This document shows positions 2,459 to 11,629 of a stretch of 11,629 nt of DNA, in pieces. Location of the stretch: positions 1 to 11,629 of the forward strand of contig DATKZS010000170.1 of NCBI GenBank assembly GCA_035527835.1. Direction: 5' to 3'. The position numbers and the translations under genes were made by a program. The stretch's first letter is position 1. Each line of letters starts with the position of its first letter. A model generated the notes under the pieces. That model saw only the letters and a program-made list of their open reading frames with translations. It did not search any database and had not been told where the DNA came from. Origin of the DNA: DATKZS01 sp035527835 [NCBI: bacterium]. GTDB lineage: Bacteria > RBG-13-61-14.

Positions 2459-2542
2459 TGGTTTCGCACAGAGGCACGGAGAACACAGAGAAAAAATAAT
2501 GTAAAAAATTCTCTGTGTTCTCCGTGCCTCTGTGCGAAACCA
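2459..2542. repeat. Perfect 34-bp inverted repeat, CAGAG family (copy 1)
   Basis: Arms 2459-2492 and 2509-2542 are perfect reverse complements around a 16-nt loop made only of A, T and one G. The 5' arm is built from near-copies of an 8-9 nt unit: ACAGAGGC, ACGGAGAAC, ACAGAG. There is no U-tract directly after the stem, so it is not a standard intrinsic terminator. It lies between two divergent genes. A related copy is at 8999-9073. The type resembles intergenic palindromes scattered through many deltaproteobacterial and candidate-phylum genomes; its function is unknown. Confidence 0.95.
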
Positions 2543-2604
2543 GAACTCTTCCCATCAACCCATGCTTTTTAACAGCAAGGAAAATGGCGCGGCGCGCGGG
2601 GAAT

Positions 2605-2613
2605 TGGTATAAT
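2605..2613 (+). promoter_or_regulatory. Extended -10 promoter for a leaderless methyltransferase mRNA
   Basis: The sequence TGGTATAAT is a full extended -10 element (TG, one base, TATAAT at 2608-2613). The expected transcription start, about 7 nt downstream, falls on or next to the GTG at 2621. There is no room for a Shine-Dalgarno site, which implies a leaderless mRNA. A -35 box at 17-nt spacing (2585-2590, TGGCGC) is poor, which extended -10 promoters tolerate. Confidence 0.6.
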
Positions 2614-2620
2614 CCGTTTC

Positions 2621-3442
2621 GTGAGCATCGTTGATAAAATCCGGGCTGCGCTCGGCGGCAAAGAGGCCGCGCCGGACGCGGAGGCGCCGGTGGAGTTGTG
2701 GAGCCCGAAGCTGGGTGAGGACTACAAGAGCTTCTGGGACAACATGGCCAAGGACCGGGCGGGCGCGTATCTGGCGGTGGCGGGCGAGCCGTTCGGCCGG
2801 CCGGCGACGGAGGAGAGCCTGTCGGCGCACGGCAAGGACACGGCCGCGATCATCGCGAAGGTGCTGTCCATCGGGAAGGATGACCGGGTGCTGGAGGTCG
2901 GGGTTGGGGTGGGCCGGATCGCCGAGCACGTGGCGCCATTGTGCCGGAGCTTCACCGGGACCGACATCGCCGAGAACATGATCAAGTTCGCGCGCGAGCG
3001 GATGAAGGGCCGGGATAATGTCACGCTGGTGTCCCGCGACCGGAGCGACCTGGCCCCTTTTCCGGACGCGAGCTTTGACAAGATTTATTTGCAAGTGGTG
3101 CTGATCCACCTGGACCGCGAGGACGCGTTCCATTACATGCGGGAGGCGTATCGCGCGCTGGCGCCCAAGGGGCTGGCGTGGTTCCAGTTCTACAACCTGC
3201 TGCATCCGAAGGGGTTCAAGGAGTTCCGGTTCGCGGTGGACTACATGGTGGAGAAGGGGCAAAAGACGCGGGGCCGGGTGCACTGCTACACGGCGGCCGA
3301 GGTCAGGGAGCTGGTGACGCGGGCGGGGTTCAGGGTCCGGGAGGACCTGTCGCACCTTGGGGAGCGGGAGCAGAAATTCGGCTTCCAGATTCCGGACACG
3401 GACTGGGAGTTTTATTTGATCGCGGTGGGGGAGAGGCCTTAA
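2621..3442 (+). CDS. Class I SAM-dependent methyltransferase
   Basis: A 273-residue protein with a Rossmann methyltransferase core. The SAM-binding glycine motif VLEVGVGVGR is at 90-99, the acidic residue after strand 2 is D115 (FTGTDIAENM), and the post-catalytic strand is FDKIYLQVVLIHL (152-164). About 70 residues precede the core and the C-terminus is an added beta segment. The methyl acceptor is not evident. Its position 1 nt before a glycosyltransferase suggests a sugar or glycolipid substrate, but that is inference. The start is GTG at 2621, directly behind an extended -10 box with no ribosome site. No other start codon gives a better family-like opening. Confidence 0.9.
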   Translation: MSIVDKIRAALGGKEAAPDAEAPVELWSPKLGEDYKSFWDNMAKDRAGAYLAVAGEPFGRPATEESLSAHGKDTAAIIAKVLSIGKDDRVLEVGVGVGRIAEHVAPLCRSFTGTDIAENMIKFARERMKGRDNVTLVSRDRSDLAPFPDASFDKIYLQVVLIHLDREDAFHYMREAYRALAPKGLAWFQFYNLLHPKGFKEFRFAVDYMVEKGQKTRGRVHCYTAAEVRELVTRAGFRVREDLSHLGEREQKFGFQIPDTDWEFYLIAVGERP

Positions 3443-3443
3443 G

Positions 3444-4409
3444 GTGGCGGCGCCGATCGCCAGCGTGGTGATCCCGAGCTTGAACGGGGGATCGCGCTTC
3501 CGGACCTGCCTGGATGCGGTGGCGGCGCAGGAGTTGCCCGGCGGGTTCGAGATTATTGTGATAGACTCTGGATCGGACGACGGGAGCGCGGAGCTGGCCG
3601 GGCAATACGGCCGGGTGATCCGGATCGCCCGCGCCGAGTTTAACCATGGCCTCACCCGGAACCGGGCGATCGGCTCTGCCGCGGGCCGGGCGGTGGCGCT
3701 GCTCACGCAGGACGCGGTGCCGGTGGGGAAGGAGTGGCTGCGGCCGCTGGTGGAAGCGGCGCTCGAACCGGGAGTGGCCGGCGCGTACAGCCGCCAGGTC
3801 CCGCGGCCGGACTGCCCGCCGTTCATCAAGGCGCGGCTGACGCGGTGGATGGCGGGCCGGACCGAGCGGGAGGTGAAAAGGCTTCTCGACGAGGCTGAGC
3901 TGATGGCGCTCCCGGTGCTGGAGCGCATCCGGCGGCTGTCGTTCGACAACGTGAGCTCGTGCCTCAGGAAAGAGGCGTGGGAGAAGCGCCCGTTTCTTGA
4001 GCGCCGGTTCGGGGAGGACGCGGCGTGGGCACGGGAGGTGCTGCTGGCCGGGTACGCGCTGGTGTACGAGCCGGCGTCGGTGGTCGAGCACTCGCACGCG
4101 AACTCCTTGTGGTACGAGTTCAAGCGGGTGTACCTGGACCACCGCAACTGGCGGGAGGTGGCCGGGGGCGCGCTGTTCAATAATCCGCTCGAGGTCTTGC
4201 AGGCGAGCTGGAACGGCGTGGGCGAGCGGTGGCAAGAGCTCGGGGAGCAGGACGTGCGGGGGGCGGCGCTGTGGTATTGGCGGGCGTATGCGCTGCCGTG
4301 GTCGTTCAGCCAGAACGCGGCGCAGTTCCTGGGCGCCCGGTCCATGAAGGCGGCGCGGAAGTTCAAGTGGTGGGAGCGGGTGGACGATTTTTTGGCCCGA
4401 GGGGTATGA
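3444..4409 (+). CDS. Family 2 glycosyltransferase, rhamnosyltransferase-like
   Basis: A 321-residue GT-A fold enzyme transferring a sugar from a nucleotide donor, probably on the cytoplasmic side. The N-terminal strand is VVIPSLNGG (8-16), and the nucleotide-binding acidic motif is DSGSDDGS (41-48). FNHGLTRNRA (66-75) followed by LTQDAVP (87-93) is the signature of rhamnosyltransferase-type GT2 proteins, where TQDA stands in the place of DXD. SFDNVSSCLRKEAW (166-179), the ED pair at 191-192 and VVEHSHAN (213-220) complete the acceptor side. The GTG start is 1 nt after the methyltransferase stop, with a purine-rich GGGGAGAGG upstream, so the two are almost certainly co-transcribed. The donor sugar is not proven. 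Confidence 0.9.
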   Translation: MAAPIASVVIPSLNGGSRFRTCLDAVAAQELPGGFEIIVIDSGSDDGSAELAGQYGRVIRIARAEFNHGLTRNRAIGSAAGRAVALLTQDAVPVGKEWLRPLVEAALEPGVAGAYSRQVPRPDCPPFIKARLTRWMAGRTEREVKRLLDEAELMALPVLERIRRLSFDNVSSCLRKEAWEKRPFLERRFGEDAAWAREVLLAGYALVYEPASVVEHSHANSLWYEFKRVYLDHRNWREVAGGALFNNPLEVLQASWNGVGERWQELGEQDVRGAALWYWRAYALPWSFSQNAAQFLGARSMKAARKFKWWERVDDFLARGV

Positions 4410-4424
4410 TGGACAAATATCTTT

Positions 4425-4509
4425 CAGACAGGATTAACAGGATTTACAGGATAAAAACAAGAAAAAGTGCTTCCTCTTATTATCCTGTAAATCCTGTTAA
4501 TCCTGTCTG
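4425..4509. repeat. Perfect 30-bp inverted repeat, ACAGGATT family (copy 1)
   Basis: Arms 4425-4454 and 4480-4509 are exact reverse complements around a 25-nt loop. The 5' arm is three near-copies of a 9-nt unit: ACAGGATTA, ACAGGATTT, ACAGGAT. It fills most of the gap between the two glycosyltransferase genes. In the reading frame of the GT4 gene's strand it would be translated as NPVNPV-like peptide, which is an artefact. A decayed relative lies at 7181-7259. No U-tract follows the stem, so terminator function is not evident. Confidence 0.95.
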
Positions 4510-4532
4510 CAAATTCTCCAGGTATAAATAGA

Positions 4533-5831
4533 ATGCGCATCGTTTATGTCACCCAGAGTTATCCGCCGGAGCGGGTGGGCGGCGTCGAGGTTTACGTCAA
4601 GGGCCTGGCGCGCGAGCTCAGCCGCGGTCACGAGGTTTTCGTGTTCAGCCGGGGGCTGAAGTCCGGGCTTGGGCACGGCGAGGTCTATGAAAGCGACGAC
4701 GGGCCGGTGCGGGTGACGCGGGTGCACGTTGACCTTGGCCGGGTCAATGAGTTCCGCGACAAGTACATGCGGCCGTGGCTCACGGGCCTGTTCCGGGAGT
4801 ATTTGAAGCGGATCGGTCCGGACGTGGTGCACGTCCAGCACCTGGGCGGGATGAGCCTGGACATGGTGCGCGCGGCGGCCGAGCTGGGAGCGCCGGTGGT
4901 GATGACGCTCAGCGACCATCAGCCCTATTGCCCGCGCGGGCAGCGGATCCGGAACGACAAGCGGGTGTGCAAGAAGATCGTACCGGACGAGTGCCTGGAG
5001 TGCCTGAAGCCGCAGACCGTGGGCATCCACGGCCGGCCGGGCAAGCTCGCGGCCTACCTGATGGGCAAGGCGAAGGGGAAGGAGATGCTGGAGCGGATGC
5101 GGGAGGACATCGCGGAGCAGTTCGGATCGGTCTCGTGCTTCATCATGCCCTCCGAGTCTCACCGGCGGATCATGGTGGAGGAGGGGGTGCCGGGGGAGCG
5201 GTCGCGGGTGCTGGCTTACGGTCTCGACCTGTCCGAGCTGGACAAGGTGCCGCGGCGGCCGGCCGGGGAGCCGGTGCGCAAGTTCGGCTACCTGGGCACG
5301 CTGATCCCGTCGAAGGGAGTGGAGGACGTGATCCGGGCGTTCAAGAAGCTGAAGACGCCCGGCTGCTCCCTGCACATGCACGGGGAGGCGGTCCCGTACC
5401 ACGGAATCACGGACTATGACAAGCGTTTGGTCGAGCTCGCCCGGAGCACGGAGATCAGCTTTTACGGGGCCTACCAGCCGGCGGACCTGCCGCGGGTGCT
5501 GGCCACGGTGGACGCGATCATCATGCCGTCGCGGTGGTACGAGTCGTACGGGATCACCATCCGGGAGGCCTTCCGGGCGAGGCGGCCGGTGATCGTGTCG
5601 GACGTGGGCGCGTTTTCCGAGGCGGTGGAGCACGAGGTGAACGGGCTCACGTTCCGGCCGGGCGACGTGTTCGAGCTGGCGGCGGCCATGGACCGCCTGG
5701 CGGGCGACCCGGCGCTGGCCGACAAGTTCGCGGCGGCCGGCGGGCCCATCGAGGGGCTCGCGGAGCACGCGGCCAAGCTGATCGAGGTGTATGAAGGGGC
5801 GAGGTCCTCAATGCAGTCCGAAAAGAAATGA
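4533..5831 (+). CDS. Family 4 (group 1) glycosyltransferase
   Basis: A 432-residue GT-B fold retaining glycosyltransferase. The N-terminal domain opens MRIVYVTQSYPPERVGGVEV, with the paired glycines (16-17) before the first helix. A cysteine cluster (C133, C146, C154, C157) around the DHQPYCPRG loop matches a GT4 subgroup and may bind metal. The C-terminal nucleotide-sugar domain begins at FGYLGTLIPSKG (251-262), and the EX7E motif is E337/E345 in ESYGITIREAF. It follows the GT2 gene on the same strand after 123 nt holding a hairpin, so it may belong to the same glycan pathway. No good ribosome site precedes the ATG; TATAAA (4523-4528) lies 4 nt upstream and could act as a -10 for a leaderless transcript, though more weakly than at the methyltransferase. 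Confidence 0.93.
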   Translation: MRIVYVTQSYPPERVGGVEVYVKGLARELSRGHEVFVFSRGLKSGLGHGEVYESDDGPVRVTRVHVDLGRVNEFRDKYMRPWLTGLFREYLKRIGPDVVHVQHLGGMSLDMVRAAAELGAPVVMTLSDHQPYCPRGQRIRNDKRVCKKIVPDECLECLKPQTVGIHGRPGKLAAYLMGKAKGKEMLERMREDIAEQFGSVSCFIMPSESHRRIMVEEGVPGERSRVLAYGLDLSELDKVPRRPAGEPVRKFGYLGTLIPSKGVEDVIRAFKKLKTPGCSLHMHGEAVPYHGITDYDKRLVELARSTEISFYGAYQPADLPRVLATVDAIIMPSRWYESYGITIREAFRARRPVIVSDVGAFSEAVEHEVNGLTFRPGDVFELAAAMDRLAGDPALADKFAAAGGPIEGLAEHAAKLIEVYEGARSSMQSEKK

Positions 5832-5910
5832 GCCGCAGATGAACGCAGATGAACACAGATAAGAAAATATATTTCCTTTTTATCTGCGTTCATCTGCGTT
5901 CATCTGCGGC
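5832..5910. repeat. Near-perfect 34-bp inverted repeat, CGCAGATGAA family
   Basis: Arms 5832-5865 and 5877-5910 pair along their length with one A-C mismatch and one G-U pair. The 5' arm is three copies of a 10-nt unit: CGCAGATGAA, CGCAGATGAA, CACAGAT. The mismatch comes from the third unit, which has CAC where the 3' arm still specifies CGC. The repeat starts on the base right after the GT4 stop codon and ends in a run of seven A. With no U-tract downstream it does not look like a terminator for the plus-strand gene. Confidence 0.95.
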
Positions 5911-5958
5911 AAAAAAACAAACTCCAACATTCTTGTCGCCAAAACAATTGGACGGTGA

Positions 5959-6495
5959 ATGATGCCGGGAGATGAAAAGGGCTACGTGCAGGTCTACACC
6001 GGGGCCGGCAAGGGCAAGACCACGGCGGCGCTGGGGATGTGCCTGCGGGCGGCGGGCCACGGGCTGACCTCGCATATCATCCAGTTCATGAAGGGCCGGA
6101 TTGATTACGGCGAGCTCGAGGCGGTGAAGCGCTTCGAGGGGTTGATAAAGCTCACGCAGGGCGGGCGGGAATGCTTTGTTTCCAAGAGCTGCCCGGACCC
6201 GGAGGACAAGAGGCTCGCCCAGGAGACGCTGAAGCTGGCGCGGGAGGCGATGCGGGAGGGCAAGGTTGACATCCTGGTGCTGGACGAGATCAACGTGGCG
6301 CTCGACTTCGGGCTGATCGAGCTGGAAGACGTGCTCGGTCTGATCCGGGAGAAGCCGGAGCGGATGGAGCTGGTGCTGACCGGCCGCAACGCTCATCCGA
6401 AAGTTATCGAGGCCGCGGACCTGGTGACGGAGATGCGGGAGGTCAAGCACTACTGGGAAAAGGGCGTGACGGCGCGGACGGGCATAGAATGCTGA
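5959..6495 (+). CDS. cobO: Cob(I)alamin/cob(I)yrinic acid a,c-diamide adenosyltransferase
   Basis: A 178-residue CobO/BtuR-type (CobA of Salmonella) ATP:corrinoid adenosyltransferase, which attaches the 5'-deoxyadenosyl group to reduced cobalt and yields coenzyme B12. The P-loop GAGKGKTT (15-22), VLDEINVALDFG (107-118), LVLTGRNAHPKVIEAADLVT (138-157) and the closing VKHYWEKGVTARTGIE (163-178) are all family landmarks, and the length is typical. Two ATGs are adjacent (5959 and 5962); GGTGA abuts the first, so either may be used. Two genes downstream lies an adenosylcobalamin-dependent mutase, the obvious consumer of the product. No other B12 synthesis gene is in view, so a role in salvage or cofactor maturation is plausible. 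Confidence 0.95.
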   Translation: MMPGDEKGYVQVYTGAGKGKTTAALGMCLRAAGHGLTSHIIQFMKGRIDYGELEAVKRFEGLIKLTQGGRECFVSKSCPDPEDKRLAQETLKLAREAMREGKVDILVLDEINVALDFGLIELEDVLGLIREKPERMELVLTGRNAHPKVIEAADLVTEMREVKHYWEKGVTARTGIEC

Positions 6496-6500
6496 GATTT

Positions 6501-6553
6501 TCGGTAGGCCCGACACTCTTGTCGGGCGGCGCGGAACAAGAGTGGCCTACCGA
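6501..6553. repeat. Bistable inverted repeat, TCGGTAGGCC family
   Basis: The outer arms 6501-6522 and 6536-6553 are reverse complements except for a 4-nt insertion (CGAC, 6510-6513) in the left arm. The left arm also forms a compact hairpin of its own: 6508-6515 (GCCCGACA) pairs with 6520-6527 (TGTCGGGC) around a CTCT tetraloop. The two folds share bases and exclude each other. The sequence lies between cobO and the PH-like membrane gene and is unrelated to the other repeat families in the window. No U-tract follows. Confidence 0.85.
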
Positions 6554-6617
6554 TGAGCAAATATTTACGTCGCGATGTACGGCAACCAGCAGCCAGGGAG
6601 AGGGCGGGGTAGTGGAC

Positions 6618-7145
6618 ATGGAGCCGGGCGGGAAGATTTACGAGTGCGGGATGAGGCGGTTCGAGATTTCCGCGCTGCTTTACGAGCTGCCGCTCCTGGT
6701 CGGCGCGCTGGTGATGGCGTGGGCGCTGCTCGGAGCGTATAACCTGATCCTGGTCCGCTGCCTCGGCGACAGCCGGAATGCGGCGTTCGCGATGCTCGCG
6801 GTCCTGGACCTGATCGGGCTGGCCATTGTCTTCTGGGCCGCGAGCTTCTTCCCGAAGCGGATCACGGTGTACGCCGACCGCATCCGCTTCAAGATGATCT
6901 TCAGGGACCGCGACATCATGATCGCCGACGTCAGGGAGCTGAGGCCGTTCGCGGCGGGCGAGGTGCGCCGGGCCTTTTTCGCGCCGGGCAAGCTCTGCCT
7001 CTCGCTGTCGGTTCGCGGCGCCTTGCTGCTCCGGAAGGCGCGGGGGCGGGCGTGGGTGTTCAGCCCGGCGGACGCGGACACTTTCGTGGAAGCGGTGGAG
7101 AAGGCGAGGCGGGAGGCCGGGTCCAGGCCGGAGGGTGATTCCTGA
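6618..7145 (+). CDS. Two-helix membrane protein with bacterial PH-like domain
   Basis: Unnamed 175-residue inner-membrane protein. Two hydrophobic segments (about 19-46 and 55-78) are followed by a soluble domain starting PKRITVYADRIRFKMIFRDR and ending in WVFSPADADTFVEAVEKA. That pattern (short strand, turn, strand, then an F/ISP.D...F..A helix) resembles bacterial PH (bPH2-type) domains, which bind lipid or partner proteins. I set the start at the ATG 6618, with GGGGT about 7 nt upstream; the GTG at 6612 behind GGGAGAGG is an equally possible start. The frame is open back to 6489, but the extra 43 residues would be translated from the repeat at 6501-6553 and are unlikely to be real. No specific role can be given. 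Confidence 0.75.
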   Translation: MEPGGKIYECGMRRFEISALLYELPLLVGALVMAWALLGAYNLILVRCLGDSRNAAFAMLAVLDLIGLAIVFWAASFFPKRITVYADRIRFKMIFRDRDIMIADVRELRPFAAGEVRRAFFAPGKLCLSLSVRGALLLRKARGRAWVFSPADADTFVEAVEKARREAGSRPEGDS

Positions 7146-7180
7146 TGGACAGCGCCAGGCGGTCATTAAAATATTTCGAG

Positions 7181-7259
7181 ACGGGATTAACGGGATTTAC
7201 AAGATGAAGAAAAAATAAGCGGCGTCCTCGGAAAATCCTGTTGATACTGTTAATCCTGT
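7181..7259. repeat. Decayed inverted repeat, ACAGGATT family (copy 2)
   Basis: Arms 7181-7205 and 7235-7259 match as reverse complements at 19 of 25 positions. The 5' arm has the same three 9-nt units as copy 1 at 4425 and differs from it at three positions, all A/G changes. The 3' arm has drifted further (TTGATACTG where copy 1 has TAAATCCTG). It lies between the PH-like gene and the mutase gene, well upstream of the mutase ribosome site. Confidence 0.85.
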
Positions 7260-7318
7260 AAAAAAATCTTCTAAGCAGTACAGCAAGGGGGAGACGGGTT
7301 TCAGGGAAGGAGGGAGTA

Positions 7319-8989
7319 ATGAGCAGTAAGGATTCGGGCCATACCCGGCGCAACGAGTGGGAAGAAGAAGTATTGAAGCCGTTCCTCTCGCGTTCGGCCG
7401 AGTGCAAGGAAAAATTCGAGACGGTGTCCGGCCGCGAGATCCCGAGGCTTAGCGGGCCGGAGGACCTCGCGGACTTCGATTACGAGCATGACCTCGGTTA
7501 CCCTGGCGCGTACCCTTATACCCGCGGCGTTTACCCGACCATGTACCGGGGCCGGCTGTGGACCATGCGGCAGTTCGCGGGGTTCGGCACGGCCACCGAG
7601 TCCAACCAGCGCTTCCATTATTTGATGCGGCAGGGCGTTACCGGGCTGTCGGTGGCGTTCCACCTGCCGACGATCATGGGCCGCGACTCGGACAGCCCGC
7701 GCTCGCAGGGCGAGGTGGGCAAGGTGGGGGTGGCGGTGGACACGCTCGCGGACATGGAGACGCTGTTCGCGGGCATCCCTCTTGACCAGGTCACGACCTC
7801 GATGACCATCAACGCGCCGGCGTCGGTGCTGCTCTCGATGTACATCGTCGCGGGCGAGAAAAGCGGCGTTGCGATGGACCGGGTGGGCGGCACCATCCAG
7901 AACGACATCTTGAAGGAGTACATCGCGCAGAAGTCGTGGATCTTCCCGCCGCGGCCGTCGCTCCGGATCATCACCGACATCATGGCGTTCTGCGCGGAGC
8001 GGGTGCCCAAGTGGAACACCATCTCCATCTCCGGCTACCACATCCGCGAGGCCGGCTCCACGGCGGTGCAGGAGCTGGCGTTCACCATCGCCGACGGCAT
8101 CGGCTACGTGCAGGCGGGGATCGAGGCGGGCCTGGACGTGGACCGGTTCGCGCCCCGGCTCTCATTCTTCTTCAACGCGCACAACGACTTTTTCGAGGAA
8201 GTGGCCAAGTACCGCGCGGCCAGGCGGATGTGGGCCCGGATCATGAGGGACCGGTTCCAGGCCAAGAAGCCGGAGAGCTGGAAGCTCCGGTTCCACACCC
8301 AGACCGCGGGGTGCTCGCTCACCGCGATGCAGGCGCAGAACAATATCATCCGGACCACCATCCAGGCGCTGGCCGCGGTGATGGGCGGGACCCAGAGCCT
8401 GCACACCAACTCCATGGACGAGACGCTGGCGCTGCCGACCCAGCAGGCCGTGACCATCGCGCTGCGCACGCAGCAGATCATCGCCAACGAGTCGGGGGTC
8501 GCGGCGAATATTGACCCCCTGGGCGGATCGTACTACGTGGAGAAGCTCACCAACGAAATGGAGGCCGAGGCCTATGCTTACCTCGACAAGATCGAGGCGC
8601 TGGGCGGGATCGTGGACGCAATCGAGAAGGGCTTTCCGCAGCGGGAGATCGCGGACGCCAGCTACCGCTACCAGCTCGCGGTCGAGAGCGGCGGCCAGGT
8701 CGTGGTCGGCGTGAACTATCACGCCACCGAGGACTACCCTCCGATCCCCACTTTGCGGATCGGCTCCGAGGTGGAAGCACAGCAGGTGGAGCGGCTCCGG
8801 AAGCTGCGCCGGACCCGCGACCAGGCCGCGTGGGCCACGAGCCTCACGCGCCTGGAAAACGCCTCGCGGGGCAAGGACAACCTCATGCCCTTCGTGCTCG
8901 ACGCGGTCCGGGCCTATGCCTCGGTCGGAGAAATCTGCGACGTGTGGAGAAAGACGTTCGGCGAGTATCGGGCGGTGGAATACTTTTGA
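7319..8989 (+). CDS. icmA: Coenzyme B12-dependent acyl-CoA mutase large subunit, isobutyryl-CoA-mutase-like
   Basis: A 556-residue TIM-barrel catalytic subunit of the methylmalonyl-CoA mutase superfamily, which rearranges acyl-CoA carbon skeletons by an adenosylcobalamin radical mechanism. Landmarks: [13 protein letters not shown] (80-92), [20 protein letters not shown] (109-128), [20 protein letters not shown] (191-210), [11 protein letters not shown] (236-246; Y240, H241) and [19 protein letters not shown] (324-342). Compared with the Propionibacterium methylmalonyl-CoA mutase, Y89 and R207 are replaced by F86 and Q204, the pair found in isobutyryl-CoA mutase. The constant offset of 3, also seen at H244/H241, supports the alignment. 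The B12-binding domain is absent, so a separate small subunit is needed. A strong ribosome site (GGAAGGAGGG, 7305-7314) fixes the start. Most databases would label it methylmalonyl-CoA mutase; the family is certain, the substrate inferred. Confidence 0.9.
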
Positions 8990-8998
8990 GGGGGGATT

Positions 8999-9073
8999 AA
9001 CCGCAGAGGCGCAGAGAACGCAGAGGATAATTTTTAAATAAATATCTCTGCGTTCTCTTAAGTCTCCGCGGTT
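8999..9073. repeat. Inverted repeat, CAGAG family (copy 2), abutting hisA
   Basis: Arms 8999-9025 and 9046-9073 pair over 27-28 nt with one bulge and a few mismatches around a 20-nt A/T-rich loop. Over 24 aligned bases the 5' arm differs from copy 1 (2459) at four positions, each an A/G transition. The unit CGCAGAG recurs three times in the arm. The repeat begins 10 nt after the mutase stop and ends 7 nt before the hisA ATG, so it occupies nearly the whole gap, including where a ribosome site would be. Confidence 0.9.
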
Positions 9074-9080
9074 TAAAAAA

Positions 9081-9815
9081 ATGCTTGTTATACCGGCGAT
9101 AGATTTAAAAGCGGGCAAGGTGGTGCGGCTGGAGCAGGGCCTGATGGAGAAGGACACGGCTTATTCGGACGATCCGGCGGCGATGGCGAAGAAGTGGGCG
9201 GAGATGGGGGCGGAGCTGATCCACGTGGTTGACCTGGACGGCGCGTTCGCGGGGAGGCCGGTGAACGACGCCGCGGTCCTGGAGATCGCGCGGGCCGCGG
9301 GCGTGCCCATCGAGCTGGGCGGCGGAATCCGCGACCTGGCCACCATCGCCCATTACCTGGAGCGCGGCGTGGGCCGGGTGATCCTGGGCACGGTGGCGCA
9401 TAAGGACCCCAAGCTGGTGCGGGAGGCGTGCCGGAAGTTCCCCGGCAAGATCGTGGTCGGGATTGACGCGAAGGGCGGGCTGGTGTCGGTGCGGGGCTGG
9501 GCCGAGGTCACGGACCTGCCGGCTGCGGACCTGGCGCGGCGCTACGAGGACATGGGGATCGCCGCGATCATTTACACGGACATCGCGCGCGACGGCATGC
9601 TGACGGGCCCGGCGGTGGAGGCCACGGCCAGGCTGGCGCGGTCGGTCAAGGTCCCGGTCATCGCGTCGGGCGGGGTCGCGGACCTCGGCCACGTGCGCGA
9701 GCTGATGAAGCACGAGCGCGACGGGATCGTGGGCGTGATCACGGGCAAGGCCATCTACGAGGGCAAGCTGGACCTGAGGGAAGCGATCCGGGTGGCGAAG
9801 GGGAGCGGGGGATGA
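9081..9815 (+). CDS. hisA: ProFAR isomerase of histidine biosynthesis
   Basis: A 244-residue (beta/alpha)8 barrel isomerase, which opens the ribose ring of ProFAR to give PRFAR in the fourth step of histidine synthesis. The catalytic acids are D8 in [10 protein letters not shown] and D129 in VVGIDAKGG. The two half-barrel phosphate-binding motifs are ELGGGIRD (78-85) and ASGGVADL (195-202), with [13 protein letters not shown] (165-177) between. Length is standard. The DGML context and a single catalytic pair favour HisA over its paralogue HisF. It is not among other his genes in this window. No Shine-Dalgarno precedes the ATG: upstream is GTTTAAAAAA and then the arm of a hairpin. Its 3' end overlaps the lipoprotein gene by 4 nt (ATGA). 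Confidence 0.96.
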
Positions 9816-10819
9816 AGAACGGCCCGCGGCTTGCGCCGCTCCCGCATCTGATGCTGGTGTTGTTATTGGCCGGCGCGGCGGGTTGCGGGGTCAAGGGCCC
9901 GCCCAAGCCGCCGACGCCGCCGGCGCCGGACGCGCCCGGCAAGCTCCAGGCCCGGGTGCGCAACGGGTGCCTGGAGATGAGGTGGACGGCGCCGGAGGCG
10001 ACGGGACCGGAGCAGCCGGCGGCGGTGGCGTACGAGGTCATGGAGGCGGAGGTGGTGGATGGCTCGACGCCGGTATACCGGGTGGCGGACCGGACCCGCG
10101 ACCCGCAGTACCAGACGTGCGCGCCGGCGCCGGGCGGGCGCCAGCTGTTCAAGGTGCGGGGCATCTCCGATGACGGCCGGCGGGGGGCGGAGACCGAGGC
10201 CGTGGCAATGACGAACGCTCCTCCCCCTCCGGCGCCCTCCAATCTCCAGGCCCGGGGCGGCGACGGGTTCGTGGAGCTTTCGTGGGACACGCCGCCGTTC
10301 ATGCCGGCGGGAACCGGGTTCAATATTTACCGGTCAGAGGCCGCGACGCGGTTTCCGTGGCGTCCGGTCAACATCGAGCCGGCGCCGGGCGGCGGCTTCG
10401 TTGACGGCCCGGTCAAGAACGGCACGCGCTATTATTACGAGGTGCGGGCGGTGGCGCCGGTCCCGGGCGCGCGGCCGGTGGAGGGTCCGGCGGCGCCGCT
10501 CACGAGCGCGGTGCCGGCGGACCTGAGCCCGCCCGCGCGGCCGGAGGGCCTGACCGGGATCTGGACCGGCCACGGGGTGGAGCTGCACTGGCTCCGGAAC
10601 CAGGACCCGGACCTGAAGGGCTACGTGCTGGCGCGGAGACTGCGGGGCCGGGCCGAATGGCGGGAGCTGTTCCTGGACCCCATCCCACAGACCATGTACA
10701 TTGACCGGACGGCGCGGTCAGGCGCGGAGTATGAGTACGCGGTTTACGCGGTGGATGAGGCCCAGCCGCCCAACCGGAGCGCGGCATCGGAGGCGCTGTC
10801 CGTTTTCTGCGGGCCGTGA
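9812..10819 (+). CDS. Lipoprotein with CGxKGPP start and three fibronectin type III-like domains
   Basis: A 335-residue predicted lipoprotein. A short charged N-terminus and hydrophobic stretch ([12 protein letters not shown]) lead to the lipid-attachment cysteine C25. The mature protein starts CGVKGPP and a proline-rich linker. CGxKGP is the opening seen in LptM/YifL-type small outer-membrane lipoproteins, but those end shortly after, whereas here three beta-sandwich repeats follow (about 41-135, 141-236, 240-333). Each has a conserved L-x-W strand (LEMRW, VELSW, VELHW) and an F/Y-K/E-V strand ([18 protein letters not shown]), as in fibronectin type III folds. Similar lipoproteins occur in Geobacter-like bacteria. 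It overlaps hisA by 4 nt and is probably translationally coupled, with no evident functional link. Its partner is unknown. Confidence 0.85.
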
Positions 10820-10859
10820 TCTTCCTCCGGCAATTCAGAATAACGACGGGAAAAATTTA

Positions 10860-10913
10860 ACGCCAAGGGCGCCAAGTAGAAATTTTTTTCTTCCTGCTTG
10901 GCGTCCTTGGCGT
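10860..10913. repeat. 20-bp inverted repeat, CGCCAAGG family
   Basis: Arms 10860-10879 and 10894-10913 pair over 20 bp including two G-U-type pairs, around a 14-nt loop containing seven T. The 5' arm is CGCCAAGGG plus CGCCAAG, a 9-nt unit almost twice. The 3' arm extends into CTTAGCG (10914-10920), a third unit with no counterpart left in the 5' arm, suggesting a truncated copy. It lies between the convergent lipoprotein and minus-strand hypothetical genes, where termination in both directions is needed, but there is no U-tract after the stem in either direction. Confidence 0.88.
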
Positions 10914-10946
10914 CTTAGCGCTAATTTCTTCAGCTCATGGTTCCCT

Positions 10947-11318
10947 TCAGTTAGCGGATATGGCTAAGGGGACGGTGAGAACGACTTCATCCATCCATTT
11001 TCCGAAGCCGCGCTTCATCCCGCAGGCCGGGATTTTGGCGTCCACCCAGATCATTCCGGGGGCGGTGACCTTGAGGTGGATGGTGCTGAGCCCGCCCTCT
11101 AAGTGGGTTACCGGTCCGGAAATGTCGTAGCGCGTTCCCGGCCCGTATGACCCGTCGCCGCCGAGGAGGACTGCCCTTCCGGTGCTGGAGGGATCAATGG
11201 AAAAGACCACGGAGAAGCCGGCGGAGTAGGCAATGCTGCTGCTGCTGTTGCGCACGCGCAAATATTTTGGCCGGTCAATAGGTTGATAAGGTTTTCTATC
11301 TGCGCCCGGCCGGCGCAT
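10947..11318 (-). CDS. Hypothetical protein, paralogue of the adjacent right-edge gene
   Basis: A 123-residue protein of unknown family. It has no transmembrane segment or signal peptide. Residues 49-58 (AVLLGGDGSY) are identical to the neighbouring partial gene, and the C-terminal part matches it loosely: RYDISG versus RFDVSG, an EGG.STI/DGGHATI strand, IPACG versus IPHCG, and KWMDEV versus RWMNDV. The pattern of alternating hydrophobic residues suggests an all-beta fold. The start is doubtful: the ATG at 11318 comes directly after the T-run of a terminator, with no ribosome site. Either translation starts inside (TTG or GTG codons near residues 20-23), or this copy is degenerating. Its stop faces the lipoprotein gene across a hairpin. 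Confidence 0.6.
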   Translation of the reverse strand: MRRPGADRKPYQPIDRPKYLRVRNSSSSIAYSAGFSVVFSIDPSSTGRAVLLGGDGSYGPGTRYDISGPVTHLEGGLSTIHLKVTAPGMIWVDAKIPACGMKRGFGKWMDEVVLTVPLAISAN

Positions 11319-11324
11319 AAAAAG

Positions 11325-11362
11325 AAAATCGGGAGCGGGTTTTGAGGCCCGCTCCCGATTTT
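11325..11362 (-). terminator. Intrinsic terminator, possibly bidirectional
   Basis: Perfect 15-bp stem (11325-11339 with 11348-11362), GC-rich core CGGGAGCGGG, and an 8-nt loop. Read leftward it lies 18 nt after the stop of the right-edge gene and runs into TTTTCTTTTT, a good U-tract. Read rightward it ends in six T, so it may also work on the plus strand. It would stop transcription just before the 10947-11318 gene. Confidence 0.85.
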
Positions 11363-11379: not shown

Positions 11380-11629
11380 TCAAGGTATCACGGCATTTAA
11401 GGTGAACGCCGGCAACAGGTCAACGTCATTCATCCATCGGCCTTTTTCTTCGGCGAGCAAAAGACCGCAATGGGGGATTTGAGCGTTGACGATGATGAGG
11501 CCGGGGCCGGTGATGGAGAGGACGATGGTGGCGTGGCCGCCGTCAAGTTTGCCGTTGACGCCGGACACGTCGAAGCGGTTGCCCGCGGGGCCTCCGCTGT
11601 AACTGCCGTCGCCGCCGAGCAGCACGGCC
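11380..11629 (-). CDS. Hypothetical protein, C-terminal part (continues past right edge)
   Basis: The C-terminal 82 residues of a gene whose start lies outside the window, entering the frame as AVLLGGDGSYSGG and ending TLNAVIP. It is a paralogue of the 10947-11318 gene: identical AVLLGGDGSY, then RFDVSG, DGGHATI, GPGLIIVNAQIPHCG and RWMNDV at matching positions. No known domain is recognised. A single conserved IP.CG cysteine appears in both copies. A strong terminator follows its stop codon. The two genes look like a tandem duplication that has diverged considerably, so the array may continue to the right. Confidence 0.65.
   Translation of the reverse strand, partial: AVLLGGDGSYSGGPAGNRFDVSGVNGKLDGGHATIVLSITGPGLIIVNAQIPHCGLLLAEEKGRWMNDVDLLPAFTLNAVIP

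Follow-up and report, generated by a model that had tools for sequence, protein, structure and literature searches.

Hairpins in the intergenic gaps of the window

The DNA analysed here is an 11,629-nucleotide (nt) bacterial contig, DATKZS010000170.1 of assembly GCA_035527835.1 (DATKZS01 sp035527835), referred to below as the window. Its genes are ordinary bacterial ones, including those for an AMP-binding enzyme, a methyltransferase, two glycosyltransferases, CobO/BtuR, methylmalonyl-CoA mutase and HisA. Between the protein genes sit six hairpins composed of short repeated units, and it is these hairpins, together with the small nuclease family GxxExxY (PF13366), that concern us here.

A preliminary description of the window had placed one inverted repeat in each of seven gaps and had ascribed to six of them a single design with stems of 20–34 base pairs (bp). 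We compared the best ungapped stem score of each gap with 200 dinucleotide shuffles of that gap. In five of the seven gaps the stem was better than every one of the shuffles, with scores of 34, 30, 28, 13 and 14 in the gaps of the hairpins at 2459, 4422, 5832, 9013 and 10860, against shuffle maxima of 9–11. The remaining two gaps are at shuffle level. At 7181 the stem reaches a score of 8, below the shuffle maximum of 10; we therefore regard this hairpin as a decayed copy, recognised by its units, to which the range of 20–34 bp does not apply. In gap 6496–6617 both the stem score and the shuffle maximum are 10, and the inverted repeat is of a different design: at 6501–6553 it runs from TCGGTAGGCC to GGCCTACCGA around an inner CCGACACTCTTGTCGG palindrome, lacks the unit-array design, and falls within a listed open reading frame (ORF), 6489–7145, close to its start.

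The units in the window are 7 nt long and separated by spacers of 1–3 nt, hence the spacing of 8–10 nt. They read CRCAGAG in the hairpins at 2459 and 8999, CGCCAAG at 10860, CGCAGAT at 5832 and ACRGGAT at 4425 and 7181; the pattern C-R-C-N-R-A-N fits every type except ACRGGAT. In other genomes CGCAGAG, CGCAAAG, CGCCAAG, CGCGAAG and CGCTAAG all occur in an identical spacing of 8 then 9 nt. Because this graded series of units has one spacing, we place the hairpins at 2459, 8999 and 10860 in one class, AG. The first of these solo hairpins (2459–2542) carries CACAGAG units spaced by 8 then 9 nt, with 34 of 34 positions paired and a 16-nt A/T loop. The second (8997–9076, core 9013–9058) carries CGCAGAG units in the same spacing, its outer limits having been set by eye from TTAACCGC to GCGGTTTAA. 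The third (10860–10913) has the CGCCAAG variant and, like the solo hairpins of class B (4422–4512; ACAGGAT plus 2 nt, period 9) and class AT (5832–5910; CGCAGAT plus 3 nt, period 10), was identified by its inverted repeat and the shuffle test. The decayed hairpin, also of class B (7181–7259), is identified by its ACGGGAT units, and its right arm is strongly altered. The families had earlier been thought to have no letters in common. That view has to be given up, as the hairpins at 2459 and 8999 form one family, those at 4425 and 7181 another, and the hairpin at 10860 grades into the first through CGCAAAG.

Arrays of the same letters in other genomes

Such arrays are present in several phyla. 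Allowing up to three mismatches, the class B pattern was found in 4 of 47 genomes, of which G032 matched poorly, and that of class AT in 6 of 82; the reversed patterns matched 0 of 47 and 0 of 82. We also searched 198 genomes that make up one phylum-level group (that of genome G002, which need not be the window's own). At up to two mismatches, the AT, B, CRCAGAG and CGCCAAG patterns occurred in 20, 29, 50 and 34 genomes, and their reversed controls in 0, 0, 0 and 2. An origin of the arrays by chance or from base composition, which the preliminary description had raised, is rejected, given the near absence of matches to reversed patterns. The proposal that the architecture rather than the letters is conserved was half right: the letters recur too, and do so in several phyla.

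The class B hairpin matched one plasmid record each from Gemmatirosa, Spirosoma and Rhizobium, and the class AT hairpin one each from Skermanella, Bacteroides, Anabaena, Dolichospermum and Thiodictyon, some of these matches covering part of the query. Neither the 2459 nor the 10860 hairpin, searched in full length, matched a plasmid, though class AG arrays do occur on plasmids. We rejected spread by phages, as the phage collection contained no match to the 5832 hairpin or to the one GxxExxY protein searched.

GxxExxY genes and the arrays

Two families, GxxExxY and PF05635, were taken as candidate partner genes and then tested. Among ten ORFs lying between arrays, chosen by eye for size and position, four proved to be GxxExxY (PF13366/TIGR04256), beside arrays of classes AG and B. 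The family is present in 69 of the 198 genomes and in 1 of 14 well-known control genomes. It occurs in 48 of the 75 genomes with any array pattern versus 21 of the 123 without, and in 33 of the 37 with at least two patterns. In a joint model of array presence that included PF13366, PF05635, PF01797 and genome size, PF13366 had a likelihood ratio (LR) of 23.7 (p 1e-6).

The position of the arrays relative to the gene was analysed at 110 GxxExxY loci, comprising 30 loci and 80 among the further places listed, selected by score and length, with short fragments and some others left out; L307, which has a stop inside the frame, was removed, giving 109. An array was called when three units lay within 280 nt of the gene and agreed with at least 93% of the fixed letters if present on a single side, or with 86% if present on both, the expected orientation being a plus array upstream and a minus array downstream of PF13366. 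An array in this orientation was found at 78 of the 109 loci, and on both sides at 52, versus 24 and 6 for the opposite orientation. The reversed-letter control gave 0 among the 109 loci, and control tiles from the same genomes gave an array in 6 of 1140 and arrays on both sides in 0 of 1140. Arrays of these classes were present at 2 of 29 PF05635 loci, one of which had them on both sides. As the GxxExxY gene lies between oppositely oriented arrays, the full unit can be described as a hairpin in which the gene takes the place of the loop. In 47 of 51 cases (p 7e-10) the two arms of a unit, which in this comparison flank a domain of about 350 nt, are closer in sequence to one another than to same-class arms from elsewhere.

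Eight GxxExxY loci were found on named plasmids, and the clearly bracketed ones are those of Bacteroides finegoldii, Bernardetia and Gemmatirosa. On a plasmid of Sphingomonas parapaucimobilis (L449, 1495–1923) the gene stands between fabD and fabG in a row of fatty-acid synthesis genes, with an array-like CGCGAAG stretch on the upstream side only.

The GxxExxY protein is a predicted PD-(D/E)XK nuclease of about 130 residues, similar to Cas4 and RecB. Of 109 sequences, all 109 retain the first E of the catalytic PD-(D/E)XK...QxxxY motif, 108 its D, 106 its second E, 107 its K, 103 its Q and 101 its Y. An AlphaFold2 model has a mean pLDDT of 91.5. Its top structural matches are Cas4 (4r5q, E 2e-3) and SSO0001 (4ic1), also a Cas4; AddAB and lambda exonuclease are found lower in the ranking, and MGME1 further down. 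When the sequence was searched against solved chains, 2f8l (E 0.11) was the only one under E 1, and PADLOC gave a weak Cas4 match for one of the two GxxExxY proteins tried (best E 6e-4).

The unit class follows the protein clade

The strongest result of the analysis is that the type of unit follows the clade of the GxxExxY protein, not the genome. Six classes could be assigned to 78 labelled proteins (AG 38, AT 21, B 3, AC 5, AA 7 and GGAA 4), the units of the six classes being CRCNRAG, CRCNGAT, ACNGGAT, CRCAGAC, CACGRAA and NCAGGAA. On the tree of these proteins the class changes 7 times, where the minimum possible is 5 and 300 shuffles gave a mean of 36 and a least value of 32. For 43 proteins with less than 65% identity there were again 7 changes (shuffled mean 18.2, least 13). 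The class is common to both members in 137 of 138 pairs that come from different genomes and have at least 60% identity, whereas for pairs from the same genome with less than 50% identity this is so in 8 of 41; 15 genomes hold at least two classes. Each nuclease clade has its own unit, and a genome visited by several clades would therefore show several 'families' of one design. The earlier idea that one machinery acts on several unit types fits a single family, GxxExxY, that is bracketed by arrays and whose clades have different units. Since the clades go with their own 7-nt words, there may be a protein-DNA code that is readable from sequence and testable with few proteins and oligonucleotides.

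Copies, inserts and empty sites

Several observations suggest that these units have moved, the near-identical copies among them coming from genomes other than the window's own. A class B unit of about 130 bp occurs at seven sites with unrelated flanks in three genomes (G217, G246 and G274), the copies being 93–99% alike. In G248 one identical 27-nt class AT array is present in at least 15 places, and the fetched contexts show similar ends around many of them. By eye, this class B unit (L428–L434) and this class AT unit (L162–L180) have a common outer end, approximately TAAYTTRATWGTATAGGAATTTCC, around different inner units.

A 174-nt insert with class AG arms of the CGCCAAG/CGCAAAG type is present in L437 and absent from L439, where the flanks are 93 and 90% identical. 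Among the 307 array clusters compared this is the sole clear empty site, to which two less clear size differences can be added. A gene-bearing unit of G182 is missing from the corresponding site in G144, where the flanks are 90 and 94% identical; in G274 the G182 unit is truncated, with about a third of the domain remaining. For another gene-bearing unit, L266, the same kind of search yielded no site that was clearly empty. G212 has two gene-bearing copies with 88% likeness along 645 nt, beyond which their flanks differ. The comparison of G182 with G144 (L268 with L458) also indicates that the gene-bearing class AG unit is apparently nested in a class AT hairpin; units of one class may thus be housed within those of another.

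An insert at 1777–1907 of L440 (G246) was considered as a class AG element and rejected, being a different small mobile element with inverted GAGCCTCTTGCAAAA ends. The corresponding site in L442 lacks it, and in L162 and L168 the letters of its ends also stand next to units of class AT.

PF05635 genes in a like arrangement

PF05635, a four-helix bundle protein known from 23S rRNA intervening sequences (IVS), is found in 106 of the 198 genomes. For scoring of repeats across the gene we kept the untruncated loci, 24 of 30 for PF13366, 29 of 30 for PF05635 and 17 of 30 for PF01797. An inverted-repeat score of at least 14 was reached in 26 of 29 PF05635 loci, 18 of 24 PF13366 loci, 3 of 17 PF01797 loci and 16 of 1127 tiles. 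The repeat period is 7 in 19 of 23 PF05635 loci, versus 8–10 in 55 of 62 PF13366 loci. At most of the PF05635 loci (L346–L375, 29 of them untruncated) the gene is enclosed by inverted arrays whose 7-nt units are diverse, examples being TAGTGAY, ATCGTRA, AGGATTA and GGGGRTC; these loci appear to represent a second element family with the layout of GxxExxY.

Relation to known systems

The best known system of this shape is that of REP sequences and REPINs with their RAYT gene (TnpA-REP, of the Y1 family). There, too, short palindromes are dispersed between genes, and a single-domain nuclease gene is flanked by the same palindromes. REP palindromes are known for a GTAG or CGTC tag at one end. GxxExxY elements differ in using another nuclease family, PD-(D/E)XK and Cas4-like, in having arms of two to three tandem 7-nt units, and in that the gene forms the loop of the hairpin.

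Short gene-less versions of 23S rRNA IVS exist. IVS have complementary ends, in some cases carry a gene of the PF05635 type (S23) between them, are cut by RNase III and are patchily spread (PMC4990558; Coxiella). The complementary ends, the small gene between them in some copies, the patchy spread and the gene-less versions are likewise seen here, whereas GxxExxY belongs to another protein family and the window hairpins lie outside rRNA. The PF05635 units of our loci have a 7-nt period and letters other than those of the GxxExxY units.

Miniature inverted-repeat transposable elements (MITEs) are also comparable. One report ties a MITE in Thiomargarita hupL to a PD-(D/E)XK_2 'Yhg-A' gene (PMC4853749), and the units described here are similarly small, gene-less and inverted, and may likewise stem from an element that encodes a PD-(D/E)XK protein. 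They differ from the hupL MITE in that their arms consist of unit arrays, their partner belongs to PF13366 and the unit type follows the partner clade. Two traits of MITEs are observed: near-identical copies of a gene-less inverted-repeat unit stand at unrelated sites (class B, seven sites), and the ends are common with a gene-bearing parent (arrays on both sides of 52 of 109 GxxExxY genes).

Short tandem intergenic units have been described as the TAACTGA heptamers of Beggiatoaceae, which are patchily distributed over phyla, and as the GGGAATC inverted pairs of Xanthomonas (PMC4679880, PMC4692102). With their 7-nt period they are nearer to the PF05635 arrays than to those of GxxExxY. The main texts of the two papers do not mention S23 or a four helix bundle, and the first does not mention GxxExxY. 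A survey of stem-loops (PMC2267715) contained none of six terms sought in it. In the literature searched, to which most subscription journals and preprints do not belong, the papers found give no function for GxxExxY, and those that name the family do not, by title, deal with such repeats. Within the same literature no paper combined at least four of the subjects PD-(D/E)XK, inverted repeats, tandem repeats, palindromes, four helix bundle and the 23S rRNA intervening-sequence protein, and six unit strings were absent from it.

Interpretation

We think it likely that the hairpins belong to small selfish elements whose full form consists of a GxxExxY gene between inverted arrays of 7-nt units, and that they are copies lacking the gene. 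For those of the window, the interpretation we favour is that they are solo representatives of at least three classes of GxxExxY elements, probably mobilised in trans. In the mechanism we propose, two inverted arrays flank one GxxExxY gene that replaces the loop, and the encoded protein would read the units of its own class. It may cut them, probably as a folded-back single strand or a cruciform, and so move or spread the element; loss of the gene would yield gene-less hairpins, which could then be moved in trans. Somewhat better than an even bet, in our estimation, is the broader proposal of a widespread and so far unrecognised minimal transposable element, in which a Cas4-like nuclease gene lies within inverted word arrays, the clade sets the word, and gene-less hairpins spread in trans through several phyla.

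A number of observations weigh against this interpretation. The window itself has no GxxExxY gene, 27 of the 75 array-bearing genomes are without PF13366, 21 of the 69 PF13366 genomes have no array by the strict patterns, and PF05635 also contributes to the joint model (LR 6.0, p 0.014). Arrays of these classes are missing from 31 of the 109 GxxExxY loci, and only three of the eight loci on named plasmids are clearly bracketed. When 109 array loci were instead collected by pattern, 15 were strict hairpins, 6 bracketed the gene and 88 did neither. Under a looser test, 36 of 108 array loci had an inverted partner on the inner side, versus 9 of 109 with one on the outer; a still more permissive test, with two-unit partners, was discarded, as reversed letters matched 48 of 109. 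Many arrays elsewhere are therefore single arms or decayed. The matching G144 site is not clean, having a class AT hairpin in place of the gene-bearing unit, and no target-site duplication was established: L432/L313 is ambiguous, and none is obvious by eye in L437/L439. The fold matches to Cas4 are weak, the best at E 2e-3 and none below 0.001. Finally, the unit classes were set after the flanks had been viewed, although the tree was built from the protein domain alone, and that tree comprises 117 columns with 47 of its 105 inner branches open.

Some of these points would suit a different history, in which the arrays are older dispersed sites spread by other means and the GxxExxY gene, coding for a nuclease of the homing type, landed in arrays matching its own type. 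The apparent nesting in G182, the absence of a gene from most pattern-found array loci and the recurrence of the layout, with other units, around PF05635 genes are all compatible with homing. We nevertheless consider it unlikely, since the gene-less units are themselves discrete blocks of about 130 bp at unrelated sites and the unit tracks the protein clade rather than the genome; the nested case, moreover, crosses classes (AG in AT), which is not expected of homing to its own unit. It is also quite improbable, in our judgement, that the units act as RNA, as transcript stems cut by RNase III in the manner of the 23S rRNA IVS described above, with RNA-acting encoded proteins. The high inverted-repeat scores across PF05635 genes point in that direction, as do GxxExxY arms that stay complementary over a domain of about 350 nt, but the motif and fold of GxxExxY resemble those of DNA nucleases, and the hairpins of the window are located in gaps between protein-coding genes; when the window was compared with Rfam, no family matched at gathering score. 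Matches to plant and animal microRNA families of Rfam, all under the gathering score, were set aside because any long perfect stem yields such matches.

A Y1 (RAYT) transposase moving REP-like palindromes, the partner suggested in the preliminary description, has in its favour the likeness to the best known system of this shape, the abundance of PF01797 (134 of 198 genomes) and an association with arrays when PF01797 is considered alone (61 of 75 genomes versus 73 of 123). This association disappears beside PF13366, PF05635 and genome size (LR 0.3, p 0.55), so that PF01797 adds nothing to array prediction, and arrays of these classes were found at 0 of the 17 untruncated PF01797 loci (of 30); we give a Y1 partner hardly any credence. 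Host transcription terminators or stabilisers of mRNA 3' ends, spread by selection for that use, would account for hairpins in intergenic gaps, most with strong stems, and three terminator-like sites do overlap hairpin parts (5833–5848, 10857–10875 and 10907–10924). Such sites are, however, at shuffle level in the window (10 versus 9.0 in shuffles, in a scan of loops of 3–8 nt that cannot list the full stems), and this use creates no need for letters that recur in different phyla in association with a nuclease clade, which makes a host function of this kind very improbable.

On the selfish-element interpretation, the unexplained intergenic hairpins gain a partner gene and a testable mechanism, and GxxExxY, a common family, gains a genomic setting. 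If it is true, inverted word arrays round one small gene would be a general mode for minimal elements, PF05635, an unrelated gene, being the second case, and the layout of PF05635 may bear on the spread of 23S rRNA IVS and of heptamer repeats.

Other features of the window

In a synteny search with methylmalonyl-CoA mutase, the top identity was 71% among the best 80 of 584 loci, and the gene order of the window was found in 0 of these 80. A further terminator-like hairpin, of 15 perfectly paired bp, lies at 11325–11362 with a T run on the minus strand. It separates two minus-strand ORFs, 10947–11318 and 11380–11628, which by eye are alike.

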